Shown: in pieces, positions 13,912 through 29,524 of the stretch | Numbering within the stretch: position 1 is the first letter of the stretch | Layout: the number at the start of each line of letters is the position of its first letter | Source of the DNA: Phycisphaerae bacterium | GTDB lineage: Bacteria; Planctomycetota; Phycisphaerae; SM23-33 | Assembly: GCA_003551645.1 (NCBI GenBank) | Contig: PUND01000128.1 | Coordinates: 1 to 40,631, forward strand | Direction of reading: 5' to 3' | Length of the DNA stretch: 40,631 nt | Notes under the pieces: generated by a model | Database searches by the model: none | What the model was told of the DNA's origin: nothing | Seen by the model: the letters and a program-made list of their open reading frames with translations, nothing else | Position numbers and translations under genes: made by a program

Positions 13912-13983
13912 TACCCGGTGGTGTAATTGGTAACACAGGAGGTTTTGGTCCTCCCGTTCCAGGTTCGAGTCCTGGCCGGGTAG
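13912..13983 (+). tRNA. tRNA-Gln (anticodon TTG)
   Basis: Full cloverleaf: acceptor TACCCGG pairs with CCGGGTA, D stem GTGT/ACAC, anticodon stem GGAGG/CCTCC with loop TTTTGGT (anticodon TTG), T stem CCAGG/CCTGG with loop TTCGAGT. Discriminator G73 fits tRNA-Gln. CCA is not encoded. Confidence 0.97.
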
Positions 13984-13994
13984 CGTAGCAACGG

Positions 13995-21286: not shown

Positions 21287-23656
21287 GTGAGCAAACCAAA
21301 GCGAGCGTTGATCATCCTGGCGGCATGGACGCTGTGGCTGGCCGTTGCGCCGCCGACGGCGGCCCGGGCGCAAAACGCCGAACCCGACCAATACCCCTCA
21401 ACCATCATCGAGGTCCGCTTCCGCGGGCTTGAGCAGGTTTCCGAGCAGACCGCACGCGCGTATATGCGCACCCGTGTTGGCGACGAGTTCAGCACCGAGA
21501 CCGCCCGGGGCGACGAACAGCGCCTGCTGAGGAGTGGTCTGTTCAGCAGCGTCGCCATCACCAGGACGCAGACCACCGAGGGGATAATCGTCGAATTCAC
21601 CGTGCAGGAACGCCCGCTGGTGGAATCGCTGCGGTTCGAGGGGAATGAGGCATTCTCCGACGCGGACCTTATGAAGGAGCTGCCCTTCGGCGTCCGAAGT
21701 CCCCTGAACGTCCCCGAGGTAGAGTCGGGTAGGCAGGCGATCGTCTCCAAGTACCAGGACGAGGGCTACGCCCATGCCGAGGTGGAAGTTGACAGAGAGC
21801 AACTGCAGCGCGGTCACGTCGTGTACCGCATAGTCGAAGGCCCGCAAATCCGCATCCGTCGCCTACAGTTCGAGGGCAATGAGCACTTCAGCAACTGGCG
21901 GCTCAGCCGCCAGACCGACTCGGCCAGGAGGTTCTGGCCCTTCGTGCAGGGCTTTTTGGACCTCGAGCAGGTGCAACAGGACCTGACGACCATCCGCGAC
22001 CTGTACGTCGCCGAGGGCTTCCTCGACGCCGAGACGGACTATCTGCTGGAATACTCGCCGGACAAAAAGAGCGCGCGGCTGACCTTCGTTATTGACGAAG
22101 GCCCCCGATATCGGGTCAACCGGATCGCCTTCCGGGGCAACACGGTCTTCAGCGATGAAGAGCTTGCCCGGAGACTCAACCTCGGCCGCGGCGAGTTCTA
22201 TGTCGCCGACACCCTGCGGCACGACCTGACGGAACTGGAAGAGACCTACGGGCAATTGGGCTTCATAGACGCCGCCGTCAGTGAACAGCGTCTGTACCTG
22301 GACCCCACCGCCCCCCTGCCGGACTGGGCCGAAGAACTCCCCGACGAAGAGGTAGCCCTGGTTGACGTGGTCTTCGAGGTAAACGAAGACGACCAGTACC
22401 GCGTCGGTCGGATAGACATTCGCGGCAACGACATCACCCAGGAGCGGGTCATCCGTCGTGAGTTGCGGTTCTTCCCGGAGCAGCTTTTCAACACCGTGGC
22501 CGTTCAGGAGTCGCGCCGGCAGTTGGAGGAGACCTGGCTTTTCGAGGATGTGGCCATCACGCCGGTCGAAAGCGATGAGCCCGGTGTCCGCGACGCCCTT
22601 GTGCAGATAAGCGAGGGGCGGACCGCCGAGTTCCTCGTCGGTGTCGGGGTCAGCACCGATATGGGGCTGATGGGGACCATTTCGCTTACCGAACGAAACT
22701 TCGACATCCTGAACTGGCCGACCTCTTGGGAAGAACTGGTCAGCGGCCGGGCCTGGAGAGGCGCCGGGCAGACCTTCCGCATGGTGGCCGAGCCGGGCAC
22801 CGAACTGAGCCGCTACCACTTGGAGTGGTCCGATCCTCACCTGTTCGACAGCCAGTATTCACTGACCACACGGGCGTTCCTGTACGACCGAAGGCGGGAT
22901 CACTACGATGAGGGACGCGTCGGCGGCGCCATAAGGGTTGGACGGCTGTTCGACAATCGCTGGCACGGTGAGATATCGGCCCGGGCGGAGAGAGTCGAGC
23001 TGAGCAATCTCGACGCCCGTATGCCGCCGGACATACGGGATTTGAGGGGTACTACGAGTTTGCTGGGAATCGAGGGCGCTCTGGTCCGCGATCGCAGGGA
23101 CAGCCGATTGACGCCTACCGAAGGTGACCGCATCCGCATGAGCTATGAGCAGGTCATGGGTGATTTCACTTTCGGAAAGGTCACCGGTGAGTACCGGCGC
23201 TACTGGCCGGTTTACGTTGACGCCATGGATCGCACGCATGTGTTGGCCACCCGCATCAGCGCCGGATATATCGTGGGCGATGCGCCGGCCTTCGAGCGGT
23301 TCTTCGGCGGCGGGACCGGCTCCATACGCGGGTTCAGCCACCGCGGCGTGGGACCGCATTCAGGACCGCCCTACCGGAAGACGCCGATAGGCGGAGATTT
23401 CGAATTCTTTGCCGGGGCGGAGTATATCTTCCCGATTGTCGATGAGCAGCTCCGGGGCGTAATCTTCCTCGACACCGGAACCGTCGAGAAGGATTTTGAG
23501 ATTACCACCTACCGGGCGTCCGTCGGTGCAGGCATAAGATGGGTCGTCCCCCTGCTGGGGCCGGTGCCTATGAGTATCGACTTCGGGTTCCCCATCAACA
23601 AACACGCCGACGACGACACTCAAGTCTTCAGCTTTACGTTCGGCTGGACGCTTTGA
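21287..23656 (+). CDS. bamA: Outer-membrane protein assembly factor BamA
   Basis: Omp85-family insertase that folds beta-barrel proteins into the outer membrane. 789 residues. The signal peptide ends near AAWTLWLAVAPPTAARAQ. POTRA repeats follow, each with a Gly-rich turn: VESLRFEGNEAF, IRRLQFEGNEHF, VNRIAFRGNTVF, VGRIDIRGNDIT, plus the N-terminal IIEVRFRGLEQV, so five in all to about residue 420. The barrel includes GGGTGSIRGFSHRGVGP, which holds the conserved RGF lock of loop 6 (about 674), and a C-terminal FTFGWTL. The GTG start follows GGGAA by about 8 nt. First gene of the operon with skp and lipid A genes. Confidence 0.95.
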   Translation: MSKPKRALIILAAWTLWLAVAPPTAARAQNAEPDQYPSTIIEVRFRGLEQVSEQTARAYMRTRVGDEFSTETARGDEQRLLRSGLFSSVAITRTQTTEGIIVEFTVQERPLVESLRFEGNEAFSDADLMKELPFGVRSPLNVPEVESGRQAIVSKYQDEGYAHAEVEVDREQLQRGHVVYRIVEGPQIRIRRLQFEGNEHFSNWRLSRQTDSARRFWPFVQGFLDLEQVQQDLTTIRDLYVAEGFLDAETDYLLEYSPDKKSARLTFVIDEGPRYRVNRIAFRGNTVFSDEELARRLNLGRGEFYVADTLRHDLTELEETYGQLGFIDAAVSEQRLYLDPTAPLPDWAEELPDEEVALVDVVFEVNEDDQYRVGRIDIRGNDITQERVIRRELRFFPEQLFNTVAVQESRRQLEETWLFEDVAITPVESDEPGVRDALVQISEGRTAEFLVGVGVSTDMGLMGTISLTERNFDILNWPTSWEELVSGRAWRGAGQTFRMVAEPGTELSRYHLEWSDPHLFDSQYSLTTRAFLYDRRRDHYDEGRVGGAIRVGRLFDNRWHGEISARAERVELSNLDARMPPDIRDLRGTTSLLGIEGALVRDRRDSRLTPTEGDRIRMSYEQVMGDFTFGKVTGEYRRYWPVYVDAMDRTHVLATRISAGYIVGDAPAFERFFGGGTGSIRGFSHRGVGPHSGPPYRKTPIGGDFEFFAGAEYIFPIVDEQLRGVIFLDTGTVEKDFEITTYRASVGAGIRWVVPLLGPVPMSIDFGFPINKHADDDTQVFSFTFGWTL

Positions 23657-23728: not shown

Positions 23729-23803
23729 CACCCCATACCCGGCAGCAGCCGGGCGTATATGTTTCGGATGCCGTCAAGAACCCTAACGCGGAAAGGAAAT
23801 GCC

Positions 23804-24415
23804 ATGAAACGTCGTAACGCAGTCATCATCGCCGTATCCGTCACAATCTGCGCGGCCGTGCTTCTGCCGCACGCGTTCGGCCAGAACAACCAGGGCGCAC
23901 CGCCAACCAGGGTCGCCGTCTGCGACGTGGTGCACATCTTCGGCGAGTACGAGAAGGCCCAGAACATCATCGCTGAGCTCGAGGCCAAGCGCCAGAGCAT
24001 CGAGCGGGAGAACAACCAGAGGCAGCAGCAGATGGCCAACCTGCAGGCCGAACTGGAGAGTTACCGCCCCGGCAGCGAACAGTTCGCCAAGACTCGCGAC
24101 CAGATAGAGCGGCTGGCGATAGAGCACCAGGCCTGGCTGGAATACCAGCGCGCCATCACCATGCGCAAACACCACCAGAGGACCCGTGACATCTACGACG
24201 AGATCCTCAAAAAAGTCCGCCAGGTCGCCGAACACAGCGGCTACGACCTCGTCCTGTTCCGCTCGCAGGAGGCGGTCATGCCGACGCAATCCACCAGCGA
24301 GCTTCTGGAGGAAATCGAGCGGCGACAGGTACTCTATGCCAGCCCGCGGATCGATATAACAGATGTGGTCCTCGACGGGTTGAACGCCGGCTACGAGGCC
24401 GCCAGGGACCGCTGA
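23804..24415 (+). CDS. skp: OmpH/Skp-family periplasmic chaperone
   Basis: 203-residue periplasmic protein that holds unfolded outer-membrane proteins. The signal peptide is about residues 1-26 ([20 protein letters not shown], cleavage near AFG-QNN). The core has [20 protein letters not shown], a long coiled coil ([20 protein letters not shown], QLxAEL-type) and the closing strand GYDLVLF. The ATG at 23804 has AAGG about 8 nt upstream; an earlier in-frame ATG at 23759 would place charged residues before the signal. Lies between bamA and lpxD as usual for skp. Confidence 0.87.
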
Positions 24416-24474
24416 ACGGTCGTTTGAGCCGAATATTAAAAACAGAACTCCAGCCACAGAACGAGGCAAGAATC

Positions 24475-25518
24475 ATGCCGATTTGGCCGTTGAAAGCCGG
24501 TGAAATAGCCGAACTGATCGATGGAACAGTCGAAGGCGACGCCTCGGTCAGCGTAACAGACCTTGTCGGCATAGCCGAGGCCGGACCGGAGCATCTGACC
24601 TTCGCGGCCGACGCCCGACGGGCTAAGTCGCTGGAGCAGTCACAGGCCGGCGCGGCGATAGTGGCCGAGGAGCCGAAAGAGTCGGAGAAGACGCTGATTC
24701 GCGTCGATGATGTACAAGGGGCCTTGGTGAAGCTCCTGGCCGCAATCGCCCCGCCGGAAGACGTGCCGGCCGAGGGTGTGGACCCTGCCGCCTCGGTATC
24801 CCCGGAAGCCGAGGTCGCCGCGGACGCCCGCATAGGCCCGGGCGTGGTGGTATCCGCGGGAGCGACCGTCGCGGCGCGGGCAGTGCTTTGCGCCGGTGCC
24901 CTTGTAGGCCCGAAGGCCCGTATCGGCGAGAATACACGACTGGCCGAGGGCGTTGTGATCGGCGGCCGCTGCGTCGTCGGCAATCGCGTAAGGATAGGCC
25001 CCAACAGCGTTATCGGCTCGGACGGCTTCGGCTATTACATGGTAAACGGCGCCCATCACCTTGTGCCGCACGCCGGGAACGTGGTAATCGAGGACGACGT
25101 GGAGATCGGCGCATGCACCTGCGTGGACCGAGCCAAATTCGGCTCCACTCGTATCGGCGCCGGGACCAAGATAGACAATCTTGTGCAGATCGCCCATAAC
25201 GTGCGGATTGGCCGCGGATGTCTGCTCACCGGGCAGGTAGGCCTTGCCGGAAGCGCCCAATTGGGCGATTATGTGGTGCTGGGCGGTAACGCCGGCGTGC
25301 GGGACAACGTCTCGCTTGGAGACGGCGTTCAGTGTGCCGCGTACTCGGCCGTCGCCGCCGACGTGCCGGCCGGCGAGAAGGTCGCCGGCATACCCGCCGG
25401 CCCGGCCCGCGAGCAGATACGCATCGTGACCGCCCAGGCGAAGCTGCCCGAGCTTATGAAGCGCCTCCGGGAACTGGAGGCGAAGGTCCGGACACTTGAA
25501 TCGTCAGAAGACCATTAA
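24475..25518 (+). CDS. lpxD: UDP-3-O-acylglucosamine N-acyltransferase LpxD
   Basis: Third step of lipid A synthesis: N-acylation of UDP-3-O-acyl-glucosamine. 347 residues. An N-terminal uridine-binding domain (about 1-100, ending LVKLLAAI) is followed by hexapeptide left-handed helix repeats ([20 protein letters not shown] and on). [11 protein letters not shown] is a conserved loop, and His241 in [11 protein letters not shown] is the catalytic histidine (His239 in E. coli). The C-terminal helix is [19 protein letters not shown] 24475 has GAGG 8 nt upstream; a TTG at 24424 in the same frame would add 17 poor residues. It overlaps lpxC-fabZ by 23 nt. Confidence 0.95.
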
Positions 25519-26806
25519 GAAAGAGGCCTCCGTCGAAGGACGCGGGCTTTTCAGCGGCGAACGGGTGCGGCTGCGTTTCAAGCCGGCCGACGTCGGCACC
25601 GGTGTGGTGTTCGTTCGCGGAGACCTGGCGGAGCCGGTGCGCATCAGGACCTCTCCGGACCATGTCGCCAAGCGGTCGCGCCGTACCTCGCTGATGAACG
25701 GTTCGGTAACCGTCGAAACGGTCGAGCACGTCCTCTCGGCCGCCGCCGGGCTTGGTGTGGACAACCTGGCCGTTGAGATCAACGCCGCCGAGACGCCCTC
25801 GACCGACGGCTCCCCGAACCCCTTCGTAGAGGCATTGCAGGAGGCCGGGATAGTCGAGCAGAATGCGGAACGGTCCCCTTTTGTGATTACCGAGCCGGTG
25901 CACGTCAACCAGGACGACGCGATGCTGGCCGCCCTGCCGGGACCTTCCGACGCCCTTGATATCCTCTTCGACCTCGACTACGAGGATATGCCCGCCATAG
26001 GCCGGCAGGTACTCAGCTTCCGGCTCGGCAGAGACGACTACGCAGCCGAGCTGGCTCCGGCTCGCACCTTCTGCCTGGAGATGGAGGCGCGGGCCTTGGC
26101 GGCCCGCGGCAAGGCGACGCACCTCAGCCCCACTGAGGTGCTGGTAATCGGCGACAACGGGCCGATCCAGAACGAATGGCGCCGCCCCGACGAGGCGGTC
26201 CGTCATAAGATATGCGACCTGATCGGCGACCTGGCGCTTCTGGGCCGACCGCTTTGTGGGCGTATAGTCGCCTACAAGAGCGGTCACGAACTGAACCGCC
26301 TTCTGGTGGCGAAGCTTGCCGAACAGATAAGCCGCCGAGCCGACGGCAAAGAGCCGGCACGGAACATCGAAATGAGCGCGCGGAAGATTATGCGCCTGCT
26401 TCCGCACCGCTATCCGTTCCTGATGGTCGACCGCGTGGTCGAGCTCCAGGGGGACGCCCGTGCCGTCGGAATCAAGAACGTCACCATCAACGAACCGTAT
26501 TTCCAGGGCCACTACCCCGGCCAGCCGATCATGCCGGGGGTGATGATTCTGGAGGCGATGGCCCAGCTTTCGGGCGTGCTGCTCAGCCAGCGGCTCGAGC
26601 ACACCGGAAAGGTTGCCGTGCTGCTGAGCATGGACCGGGTAAAAATGCGCCGACCCGTCCGCCCCGGAGATCAGTTAATACTGGAGGCGGAGGCCCTTCA
26701 CGTAAGAAGCCGCACGGGCCATTGCCGCTGTCGCGCCCGCGTAGGGGCTGACATCGCGGCCGAGGCCGAAATCAAGTTCATGCTGGTTGACTCCGAGCCG
26801 GTCTGA
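25496..26806 (+). CDS. Bifunctional LpxC deacetylase / FabZ dehydratase fusion
   Basis: 436-residue fusion. Residues 1 to about 285 are LpxC, the zinc deacetylase committing UDP-acyl-GlcNAc to lipid A: His78 in [10 protein letters not shown], His237 and Asp241 in [13 protein letters not shown], His264 in KSGHELN; these match E. coli His79, His238, Asp242 and His265. Residues about 295-436 are FabZ, the 3-hydroxyacyl-ACP dehydratase: [13 protein letters not shown], His339 in [15 protein letters not shown], and Glu353 in ILEAMAQ. Start is TTG 25496, preceded by GGAGG and GAAGG within 10-20 nt, inside the end of lpxD. Both active sites look intact. LpxC-FabZ fusions are known in Bacteroidota, Chlorobi and planctomycetes. 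Confidence 0.94.
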
Positions 26807-26833: not shown

Positions 26834-27607
26834 ATGCCGGAGATTTCTCCACACGCTATCATAGAATCAGGGGCAACGCTCGCCCATGACGTGCGGGTCG
26901 GACCTTTCACGTATGTCGGCCCGGAAGTGAGCATCGGCGCCGGATGCATCATCGAGAACAACGTCACCCTCACCGGGCGCACCACACTGGACGAGGGCAA
27001 TCACGTATTCCCACTGGCGGTCATCGGCGAAAGCACCGAGGGAGATTCGTCGTCGGGCGAGTGCATTATTGGAGCGGCAAACACGCTCCGCGAGCACGTC
27101 ACCATCTACGCCGGCAACAAGCAACCGACGCGAATCGGCGACGACAACCTGCTGATGATAGACTCACAAATAGGCCCCGGCGCCGTCGTCGGCAATCACT
27201 GTATATTCGCCAACTATACCCATGTCCGCGAGCGAGCCAGAATCGAGGACTATGTCAGAACCAGCGGTTTCTGCCTGGTGGATTCCGACGTTACAGTCGG
27301 CGAATACACCTTCAGCGCCGGATACGTCATCGTGGACCGGGACGCCCCGCCGTACGCCATCATCCAGGGCTCGCCCTATCGCGTCCGCGGCGTCAACACG
27401 CACAACCTTCGCCGCTGCGGCTTCGGCGAAGACGATATACGGTCGCTCAAAGACGTATTCCGCGAGATTTATAACGGACACAGCCCGGAGCCAAACATCA
27501 AGGCACTCGATCACCTTCGGACGGCGCAGTGTGCCAACGCCGGCGTCCGTCGGCTGGTAGAGTTTATTCGTTCGCATCCCAACACGGGAGTGGAGCACGA
27601 TGGCTGA
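26834..27607 (+). CDS. LpxA-like left-handed beta-helix protein lacking LpxA catalytic residues
   Basis: 257 residues with the full LpxA layout: hexapeptide coils (VRVGPFTYVGPEVSIGAGCI), RIGDDNLLMIDSQIGPGAVV, and the C-terminal three-helix region (PPYAIIQGSPYRVRGVN, CGFGEDDIRSLKDVFREIY). But LpxA catalytic positions are changed. Where E. coli has AHIAHDC (His122, His125), this has SQIGPGA (Gln112, Pro115); His144 aligns with Asp150; and the QDLKY lysine (Lys76) is in a replaced segment, GESTEGDSSSGE. So UDP-GlcNAc O-acyltransfer in the usual way is not expected. It overlaps the next gene, an LpxA with intact residues, by 8 nt. Regulatory or structural partner, or a different acyltransferase, are the options. 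Confidence 0.8.
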   Translation: MPEISPHAIIESGATLAHDVRVGPFTYVGPEVSIGAGCIIENNVTLTGRTTLDEGNHVFPLAVIGESTEGDSSSGECIIGAANTLREHVTIYAGNKQPTRIGDDNLLMIDSQIGPGAVVGNHCIFANYTHVRERARIEDYVRTSGFCLVDSDVTVGEYTFSAGYVIVDRDAPPYAIIQGSPYRVRGVNTHNLRRCGFGEDDIRSLKDVFREIYNGHSPEPNIKALDHLRTAQCANAGVRRLVEFIRSHPNTGVEHDG

Positions 27608-28478
27608 CGTGGAGGTGCTTCGTGAGGTGGCGCCGTCGGCCCAGGTCGCACCGGGCGCCCGGATAGGCCCCTACTGCACCGTCGGCCCGAACGTGACCAT
27701 AGGCCCGGACACCGTCCTGAGCCGCCGCATCTCAGTAACCGGCAACACGACCATCGGCTCCGGCAACTACTTCGCCGAGGGCTGCGTGCTCGGGCAGCCC
27801 CCCCAGGACCTGAAGTACCAGGGCGGGCGGACTATGCTGATTATCGGCCACCGCAACCGATTCGGCATCGGGGTGACCGCTCACATCGGCACAGAGGTAG
27901 GCGGACAGCTAACCCGTATCGGAGACGACAATGTGCTGGACGACGGCTGCCATATCGCTCACGACTGCTACGTGGACGACCGCGCGCACCTCGGCCGAGG
28001 GGTGCTGCTTGCCGGCCACATCCGGGTGCAGACCGGAGCGGTAATAGACGAACTTGCCGGAGCACACCACTTCACCACGCTGGGCCGCTTCTGTCGGGTG
28101 GGTCCGCACACGCCGGTAAGACGCGATGTTCCCCCCTTTACCGATTTCCGCTGGCCTTGCCGGGGCGCCGGACCGACGGTCGTTGGGATCCATGAGGAGG
28201 GCATCCGCGCGGCGGGACTGTCCCAGGCCGACGAAGTGGAACTCAGACGCACGCTGCACGAGCTGTTCGAGGATGAATCGGCCCTTCAGACAAAGATCGA
28301 GACGCTGCTGAACATGGGGGTGGAGGGCGAAGCGGCCGACTTGTGTGAATTCTGCCAGAGATCCCTGCGGGGGGTCTTCGGGCGATGGCGGGAGATTTAC
28401 CGCGGGAAAACACCCCCCGAAGCCCCTCGCCACCTGCCGCCGGAGAGACGCCCTGAGATACGGAGGCCCCTGCCATGA
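27600..28478 (+). CDS. lpxA: UDP-N-acetylglucosamine O-acyltransferase LpxA
   Basis: First step of lipid A synthesis: transfer of 3-hydroxyacyl from ACP to UDP-GlcNAc. 292 residues. It has PQDLKYQG with Lys72, HIGTEVGGQLT, GCHIAHDC with His118 and His121, and GAHHFTT with His156; these match E. coli Lys76, His122, His125 and His144. The C-terminal helical region is longer than usual (LpxA is about 262) and ends in a Pro/Arg-rich tail, PEAPRHLPPERRPEIRRPLP. ATG 27600 has GGAG 4 nt upstream, overlapping the stop of the pseudo-LpxA; its own TGA overlaps the Gfo/Idh ATG (ATGA). Tight coupling of three genes. Confidence 0.88.
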   Translation: MADVEVLREVAPSAQVAPGARIGPYCTVGPNVTIGPDTVLSRRISVTGNTTIGSGNYFAEGCVLGQPPQDLKYQGGRTMLIIGHRNRFGIGVTAHIGTEVGGQLTRIGDDNVLDDGCHIAHDCYVDDRAHLGRGVLLAGHIRVQTGAVIDELAGAHHFTTLGRFCRVGPHTPVRRDVPPFTDFRWPCRGAGPTVVGIHEEGIRAAGLSQADEVELRRTLHELFEDESALQTKIETLLNMGVEGEAADLCEFCQRSLRGVFGRWREIYRGKTPPEAPRHLPPERRPEIRRPLP

Positions 28479-29524
28479 GCTTTCGCGTTGCCGTTGTCGG
28501 TGTCGGCCGCATGGGCAAGCTGCACGCCCGTGTCCTGAGCGAGTTGTCCGAAACCGAACTGTCCTGCGTGGTGGACCAGAACGAGGCGACCGCCAGGTCG
28601 GTCGCCAAACAGCGCGGTTGTGAGTATTTTACCGACGTCCGCGACGCGGTGGAGCATGCCGACGCCGCTATAGTATCCGTGCCTACGGTCTCTCACGTAG
28701 AGGCGGCTCGACCTTTCGTGGCCGCGGGCAAGCCGGTGCTCATCGAGAAGCCCTACACAAACCACGTAGCCGAAGGCGAGGAGCTTATAGACCTCGCCAA
28801 ACGCAGCGGCGCAAGCGTGCAGGTCGGGCACACCGAGCGGTTCAACCCGGCCGTGACGGCCATGCAGAAATACGCCATAAGCCCCAAGTTCATCGAGGCC
28901 CATCGCATAAGCCCGTTCACCTTTCGCTCGGCCGACGTGGGCGTTGTGTTGGACATGATGATCCACGACATCGACCTCGTGCTGATGCTTGCCGGCGGGG
29001 AGGTGACGCAACTCCACGCCGTCGGTATCAACGTCATCGGCGCCCACGAGGACATCTGCAACGCACGGCTGCTCTTCGACAACGGATGCGTCGCCAACGT
29101 CACCGCAAGCCGGCTGGCCATCAAGACCGAACGGAAGATGAGGATATTCTCCGAGAAGGAGTATCTCTCGGTGGACTACGCCAAGAAGGTCGGCGTGGTC
29201 ATCAAGAAGAGCCAGAACCTGGACCTTATCCAGATGGCCCGCGACCTGGACGTTGACGACCTCGCCGAGCTTGCCGGCAGCGTGGACTACACCAAGCTGC
29301 TGAAGGTCGAGGAGCTGGTGGTGGACGACTCCACCGAGCCGCTGCGCAGACAGGCCGAGGCGTTCCGCGAGACCGTGGTCAACGGCGCCCCGCCGGTGGT
29401 ATCAGCGACCGACGGGTTGGCGGCCATTCGGGTAGCCAACGAGGTCGTGGACCACATACACCAATGGAGATGGGACGGCGAAAGTTCCGCCCGCCGAGGC
29501 CTGGACGTTATCCGGCGCGATTGA
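28475..29524 (+). CDS. Gfo/Idh/MocA-family NAD(P)-dependent oxidoreductase
   Basis: 349 residues. An N-terminal Rossmann fold with VAVVGVGRMGKLHARVL binds NAD(P); LIEKPYT (about 90) holds the conserved EKP lysine, and DMMIHDIDLVLMLAGG (about 154-169) the catalytic-site H-DxD pattern. It is translationally coupled to lpxA, so it probably acts on a nucleotide sugar in lipid A synthesis. GnnA, which oxidises UDP-GlcNAc on the way to the 2,3-diamino sugar form of lipid A, is a Gfo/Idh enzyme and is a reasonable candidate, but the GnnB aminotransferase is not in the window. Last gene of the operon. Confidence 0.87.
   Translation: MSFRVAVVGVGRMGKLHARVLSELSETELSCVVDQNEATARSVAKQRGCEYFTDVRDAVEHADAAIVSVPTVSHVEAARPFVAAGKPVLIEKPYTNHVAEGEELIDLAKRSGASVQVGHTERFNPAVTAMQKYAISPKFIEAHRISPFTFRSADVGVVLDMMIHDIDLVLMLAGGEVTQLHAVGINVIGAHEDICNARLLFDNGCVANVTASRLAIKTERKMRIFSEKEYLSVDYAKKVGVVIKKSQNLDLIQMARDLDVDDLAELAGSVDYTKLLKVEELVVDDSTEPLRRQAEAFRETVVNGAPPVVSATDGLAAIRVANEVVDHIHQWRWDGESSARRGLDVIRRD

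Follow-up and report, generated by a model that had tools for sequence, protein, structure and literature searches.

The stretch of DNA analyzed here (40,631 nucleotides of contig PUND01000128.1 from an uncultured Phycisphaerae bacterium; hereafter the window) contains a lipid A-type operon whose gene order, all on the + strand, is BamA–Skp–LpxD–LpxC/FabZ–A1–A2–GnnA. Our subject is the pair A1 (26834..27607, 257 aa) and A2 (27600..28478, 292 aa), two homologs of LpxA, the enzyme that starts lipid A (endotoxin) synthesis and an antibiotic target that has been studied as a homotrimer. The stop of A1 and the start of A2 overlap by 8 nt (ATGGCTGA, 27600..27607), an arrangement compatible with translational coupling, and few-base overlaps or gaps are common at this junction in relatives. 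A preliminary description of the window had already recognized the two genes and their overlap, and the residues that it quoted for them are correct. The LpxA models NF003657 and TIGR01852 align with both proteins from end to end (E ~1e-58 to 1e-62), and both proteins match LpxA chains in the PDB at the sequence level. Their AlphaFold2 (AF2) monomer models (predicted local distance difference test, pLDDT, 85.6 for A1 and 72.6 for A2) have LpxA entries as their best PDB matches; these predicted structures confirm the LpxA fold of A1 and A2 and are uninformative on the complex. Both proteins miss the curated LpxA equivalog cut-off, that of NF003657 at 226 bits, with scores of 203 bits (A1) and 209 bits (A2).

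The canonical LpxA homotrimer has three identical active sites, each lying between two subunits, and both faces of the site are present in every subunit. We fixed these faces beforehand from solved LpxA structures (PMC7072397, PMC6286764). The contacts singled out in those two accounts place on one subunit a catalytic/N-acetylglucosamine (GlcNAc) half (E. coli Q73, D74, L75, K76, H122, H125, D126, G143, H144, Q161 and F162, with H160) and on the neighboring subunit a uracil/phosphate/acyl half (L116, M118, I134, I152, M170, N198, R204 and R205), together with the acyl contacts N137, G155, M156 and G173; we refer to the latter as the uridine diphosphate (UDP)/acyl face. PMC6408518 concurs in placing G155, G173 and M170 on the chain opposite Q161 and R258. 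Measured against these faces, A1 and A2 have opposite defects. A2 of the window has the catalytic residues Q69-D-L-K72-Y, H118, H121, D122, G139, H140 and H156, and its other face is substituted (N198->H, R204->A, N137->R, G173->P and M170->R in E. coli numbering). A1, in contrast, has Q112, P115 (the H125 position) and D150 at the histidine positions and no QDLKY; the equivalents of Q73, D74, K76, H122, H125, G143, H144 and H160 are lost, whereas those of M118, N137, G173, N198 and R204 are kept, the last four all being present in the window protein. The class-wide C-terminal motif GRYxExxR is present in A2 and absent from A1. The earlier view of the pair as an enzyme with its pseudo-enzyme thus describes A1, which is without catalytic histidines, but not A2, which is defective too, since it no longer has the other half of the site shared between subunits; because of that loss, neither protein is predicted to work alone.

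The same reciprocity is visible in an alignment to E. coli LpxA of 32 A1, 31 A2, 21 A3 (a third, complete LpxA, considered below) and 22 further Phycisphaerae LpxAs. The fraction of canonical residues retained on the catalytic face is 0.15 in A1, 0.99 in A2, 0.99 in A3 and 0.94 in the other Phycisphaerae proteins, while the corresponding values for the UDP/acyl face are 0.74, 0.35, 0.99 and 0.91; control columns, at 0.71 in A1 and 0.74 in A2, show no difference. A wider alignment that adds the LpxAs of Acidobacteria, Omnitrophota, Proteobacteria and other planctomycetes gives 0.13 (catalytic) and 0.74 (UDP/acyl) for A1 and 0.99 and 0.37 for A2. The per-position contrast between the faces has a Mann-Whitney p = 0.002. 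H125, for example, is present in 31/31 A2 versus 3/32 A1, and N198 in all 31 A1 that cover the position versus 3 of the 31 A2. Elsewhere on its UDP/acyl side A1 keeps R204 (24/31) and G173 (29/32), and in A2 the residues Q73, D74, K76, H122, H125, D126, G143 and H144 are invariant (31/31), with H160 in 30/31. Among canonical-invariant columns, A1 has lost all 12 of the catalytic face and kept N137, N198 and R204; A2 has lost exactly those three and, on the catalytic face, only Q161, which has become H, a change also seen in 13 of 22 relatives that are catalytically complete. The face that A1 lost is variable and not re-conserved (0.9 bits in the G143 column, 1.4 at H125), which disfavors the suggestion of the preliminary description that A1 alone has acquired a new activity; the face that it kept is strongly conserved (M118 5.5 bits, N198 4.7, F170 4.4). 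The acyl pocket of most A2 members is occupied by the charged or bulky R137, D/E155, R170 and P173. H125 is still present in some A1 of one subclade of family f1 (G013, G022 and G026), as expected if the loss was gradual. An annotation or assembly error as the source of the pattern is ruled out by its recurrence in ~30 assemblies, and since it is seen again in ~30 pairs it is not due to chance.

The order, represented in this survey by 38 species genomes, has both A1 and A2 in 31 species, always adjacent and in that sequence. In two more (G001 and G034) the contig ends within the region, and in five (G009, G014, G020, G029 and G033) neither gene is present and LpxC(/FabZ) is followed directly by GnnA; an intact locus with only one of the two genes was not found among the 38. 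The five pair-less genomes fall into two lineages nested among carriers in a concatenated LpxD-LpxC-GnnA tree, and the pair was lost jointly in two separate events. In one of these five, G029 (L097, G029:C529), the LpxC that precedes GnnA is without a recognized FabZ domain, unlike that of its relatives. The pair occurs in most genera of the order, and the named carriers found among public genomes are metagenome-assembled genomes labeled Phycisphaerae, Phycisphaerales, Planctomycetales or Planctomycetota. Both genes are under purifying selection, the ratio of non-synonymous to synonymous substitution rates (dN/dS) in close pairs being 0.06-0.23. The genome G005 has two A1-A2 pairs (L083 = C290, L084 = C104), each accompanied by an LpxD and an LpxC of its own, and in one of them A2 is split over two frames, through either a frameshift or a sequencing error. 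We looked for a natural A1-A2 fusion and saw none; the long open frames in G018, G013 and G037 have the appearance of overlapping frames or extended starts.

A survey of the tandem pair, which the preliminary description had proposed across Planctomycetota, is therefore positive for this order, but the degenerate pair was not seen outside it in the Phycisphaerae genomes examined in detail, where the same slot is filled by one LpxA gene or by two copies that are largely complete. Most other Phycisphaerae families examined have a single LpxA there; the sister families f10 and f11 have two in tandem. All of the tandem copies that were scored (L171 T1 and T2, L035 T1 and T2, L036 T1) pass the LpxA cut-offs. 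The second copies of f10 and f11 are complete on both faces (0.99/0.92), and in f10 K76 and D74 are gone from the first copies, which still have H122, H125, H144 and the greater part of the UDP/acyl face. In phylogenetic terms A2 forms a clade with these second copies (SH-like approximate likelihood ratio test, SH-aLRT, 97), and A1 groups with the first copies, along with three families that have a single copy (SH-aLRT 82).

Considering these patterns together, it is most likely, judging from the sequences, that A1 and A2 together make up a single hetero-oligomeric LpxA-type acyltransferase, each contributing one half. The fuller proposal, an obligately heteromeric LpxA with one site per trimer that arose by reciprocal half-site loss after tandem duplication, with earlier stages preserved in sister families, we also regard as likely, if a little less securely so. 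An lpxA gene would have been duplicated in tandem in the Phycisphaerae, after which copy 1 would have lost its catalytic/GlcNAc face and copy 2 its UDP/acyl face. With each protein keeping one face only, a complete and productive site would form only where the catalytic face of A2 meets the UDP/acyl face of A1. In a mixed trimer, be it A1A2A2 or A1A1A2, the geometry would give exactly one such interface and hence one active site per trimer. The physical hetero-oligomer, its one-site stoichiometry and its 3-acylation activity are thus predictions from residue patterns, and the acceptor may be UDP-GlcNAc or, given the GnnA-like neighbor, UDP-GlcNAc3N. A mixed trimer had been raised in the preliminary description, and the sequence evidence strongly favors it; that A1 should regulate an otherwise working A2 is not favored, and "UDP/acyl-binding half" is a more fitting description of A1 than "regulator".

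Several observations weigh against this interpretation. The UDP/acyl face of A1 is itself altered, and in most A1 it carries the fixed substitutions I152->R, G201->N and R205->C. A blind test of whether the columns lost in A1 and in A2 avoid each other, made on 46 canonical-invariant columns without the literature-defined faces, gave a non-significant p = 0.38; this test is diluted by scaffold and N-terminal columns, and the claim therefore rests on the two faces defined from the literature. Furthermore, PMC6408518 has Q161 and N198 making water contacts with a peptide inhibitor on the same chain, unlike the accounts of substrate complexes. The support for the A1-side clade is only moderate, and since A1 and A2 are adjacent, their joint loss could have been a single deletion each time. 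Finally, the genome encodes a complete third LpxA, so the pair need not provide the essential activity.

This third LpxA, A3 (G000:C71, L005 8784-9707, - strand), scores 268 bits, above the LpxA cut-off, and raises the possibility that A3 does the work while the pair erodes without function. The loss of the pair in two lineages that keep the operon would fit such redundant decay, yet we think it very improbable: dN/dS is low, the catalytic-face positions vary little or not at all across 31 A2 and N198 is present in 31/31 A1, most genera of the order still carry the pair, and the losses follow the faces instead of falling at random. Another idea, that A2 is a working LpxA tuned in mixed trimers by the pseudo-enzyme A1, draws on the retention of every catalytic residue in A2 and on precedents for inactive, activating paralogs, of which the trypanosome AdoMetDC prozyme is an example. 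It seems quite unlikely to us, as A2 is without the N198, R204, N137 and G173 that canonical LpxAs keep and that its own tandem orthologs in sister families have retained, and it falls under the LpxA cut-offs. The two proteins could instead form separate homotrimers, A2 being a divergent acyltransferase with another donor or acceptor and A1 a non-catalytic binder or sensor of UDP-sugar or acyl-ACP (acyl carrier protein). In its favor are the residues that have become conserved on A2's altered face (H198, R170, R174 and P176) and the nucleotide-type residues kept by A1, but it leaves the reciprocity of the losses unexplained, and with R137, D/E155, R170 and P173 filling the acyl pocket an A2 homotrimer would have no acyl channel; we judge it unlikely. 

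Among the closest points of comparison for the proposed split-site enzyme is E. coli LpxA itself (PDB 1LXA/2QIA/2JF3), which shares with the pair its fold, C-terminal domain and operon position after LpxC/FabZ, and whose active-site residues are the sum of those of A1 and A2. It differs in being a homotrimer with both faces in each subunit, whereas in the pair each face is on a different protein and both proteins are below the cut-off. In yeast phosphopantothenoylcysteine decarboxylase (PPCDC; Hal3/Vhs3 plus Cab3) the catalytic halves lie on different paralogs, with one site per trimer (PMC4626798). That enzyme, like the pair, derives from a homotrimer and has each essential half-site on a different paralog, but its flavoprotein fold is unrelated, and its complex and activity are proven where those of A1/A2 are predicted. 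The γ-carbonic anhydrase domain of plant complex I (CA1/CA2/CAL2) is a left-handed β-helix trimer with inter-subunit sites (PMC7447434) in whose structure, likewise, paralogs have lost site residues and only one interface is complete; it differs as a zinc enzyme of a respiratory complex, of uncertain activity, with three paralogs instead of two. More than one lpxA per genome is known elsewhere, for example in Geobacter sulfurreducens (PMC3087551), and half-site complementarity is not among the features of those copies mentioned in the relevant parts of that paper. In the literature searched, which left out most subscription journals, we came across no heteromeric LpxA, and nothing relevant on pseudo-enzyme paralogs of LpxA or on tandem LpxA genes in Phycisphaerae.

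With respect to the remaining genes of the operon, the window holds BamA (21287-23656), followed by Skp/OmpH (23759-24415), LpxD (24424..25518) and an LpxC-FabZ fusion (25496..26806) that is the sole LpxC of the genome. Downstream, A2 overlaps by 4 nt a GnnA-like Gfo/Idh/MocA oxidoreductase gene of the UDP-GlcNAc 3-dehydrogenase type (28475..29524). In most of the Phycisphaerae loci examined (the window and L035-L053) a GnnA-like gene comes directly after the position of LpxA, which hints at 3-amino sugars in the lipid A of these bacteria. The PDB entries nearest to the oxidoreductase are 7bvj/7bvk, which we take to be GnnA of Acidithiobacillus ferrooxidans. The genome has at least three strong matches to DegT aminotransferases, none of them assigned as GnnB. 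It has two LpxDs, the second of which (L005 15286-16368, G000:C71, - strand) lies with LpxI (L005 14408-15289, G000:C71, - strand) ~5 kb from A3, so that A3, LpxI and the second LpxD fall within ~8 kb on that contig, apart from the window operon. The window also carries a tRNA-Gln (anticodon ttg) at 13912-13984 on the + strand.

For annotation, the pair is a warning: A1 resembles a pseudo-enzyme and A2 a complete LpxA, yet probably neither label is right. If the proposed split of the active site is true, LpxA would have a new architecture in these bacteria, one that functions in mixed trimers only. The relatives would then preserve a stepwise record of a homomeric enzyme turning heteromeric, and their series, from a single LpxA through two largely complete copies and an eroding first copy to full reciprocal loss, offers a direct way to test how a homomer becomes an obligate heteromer.
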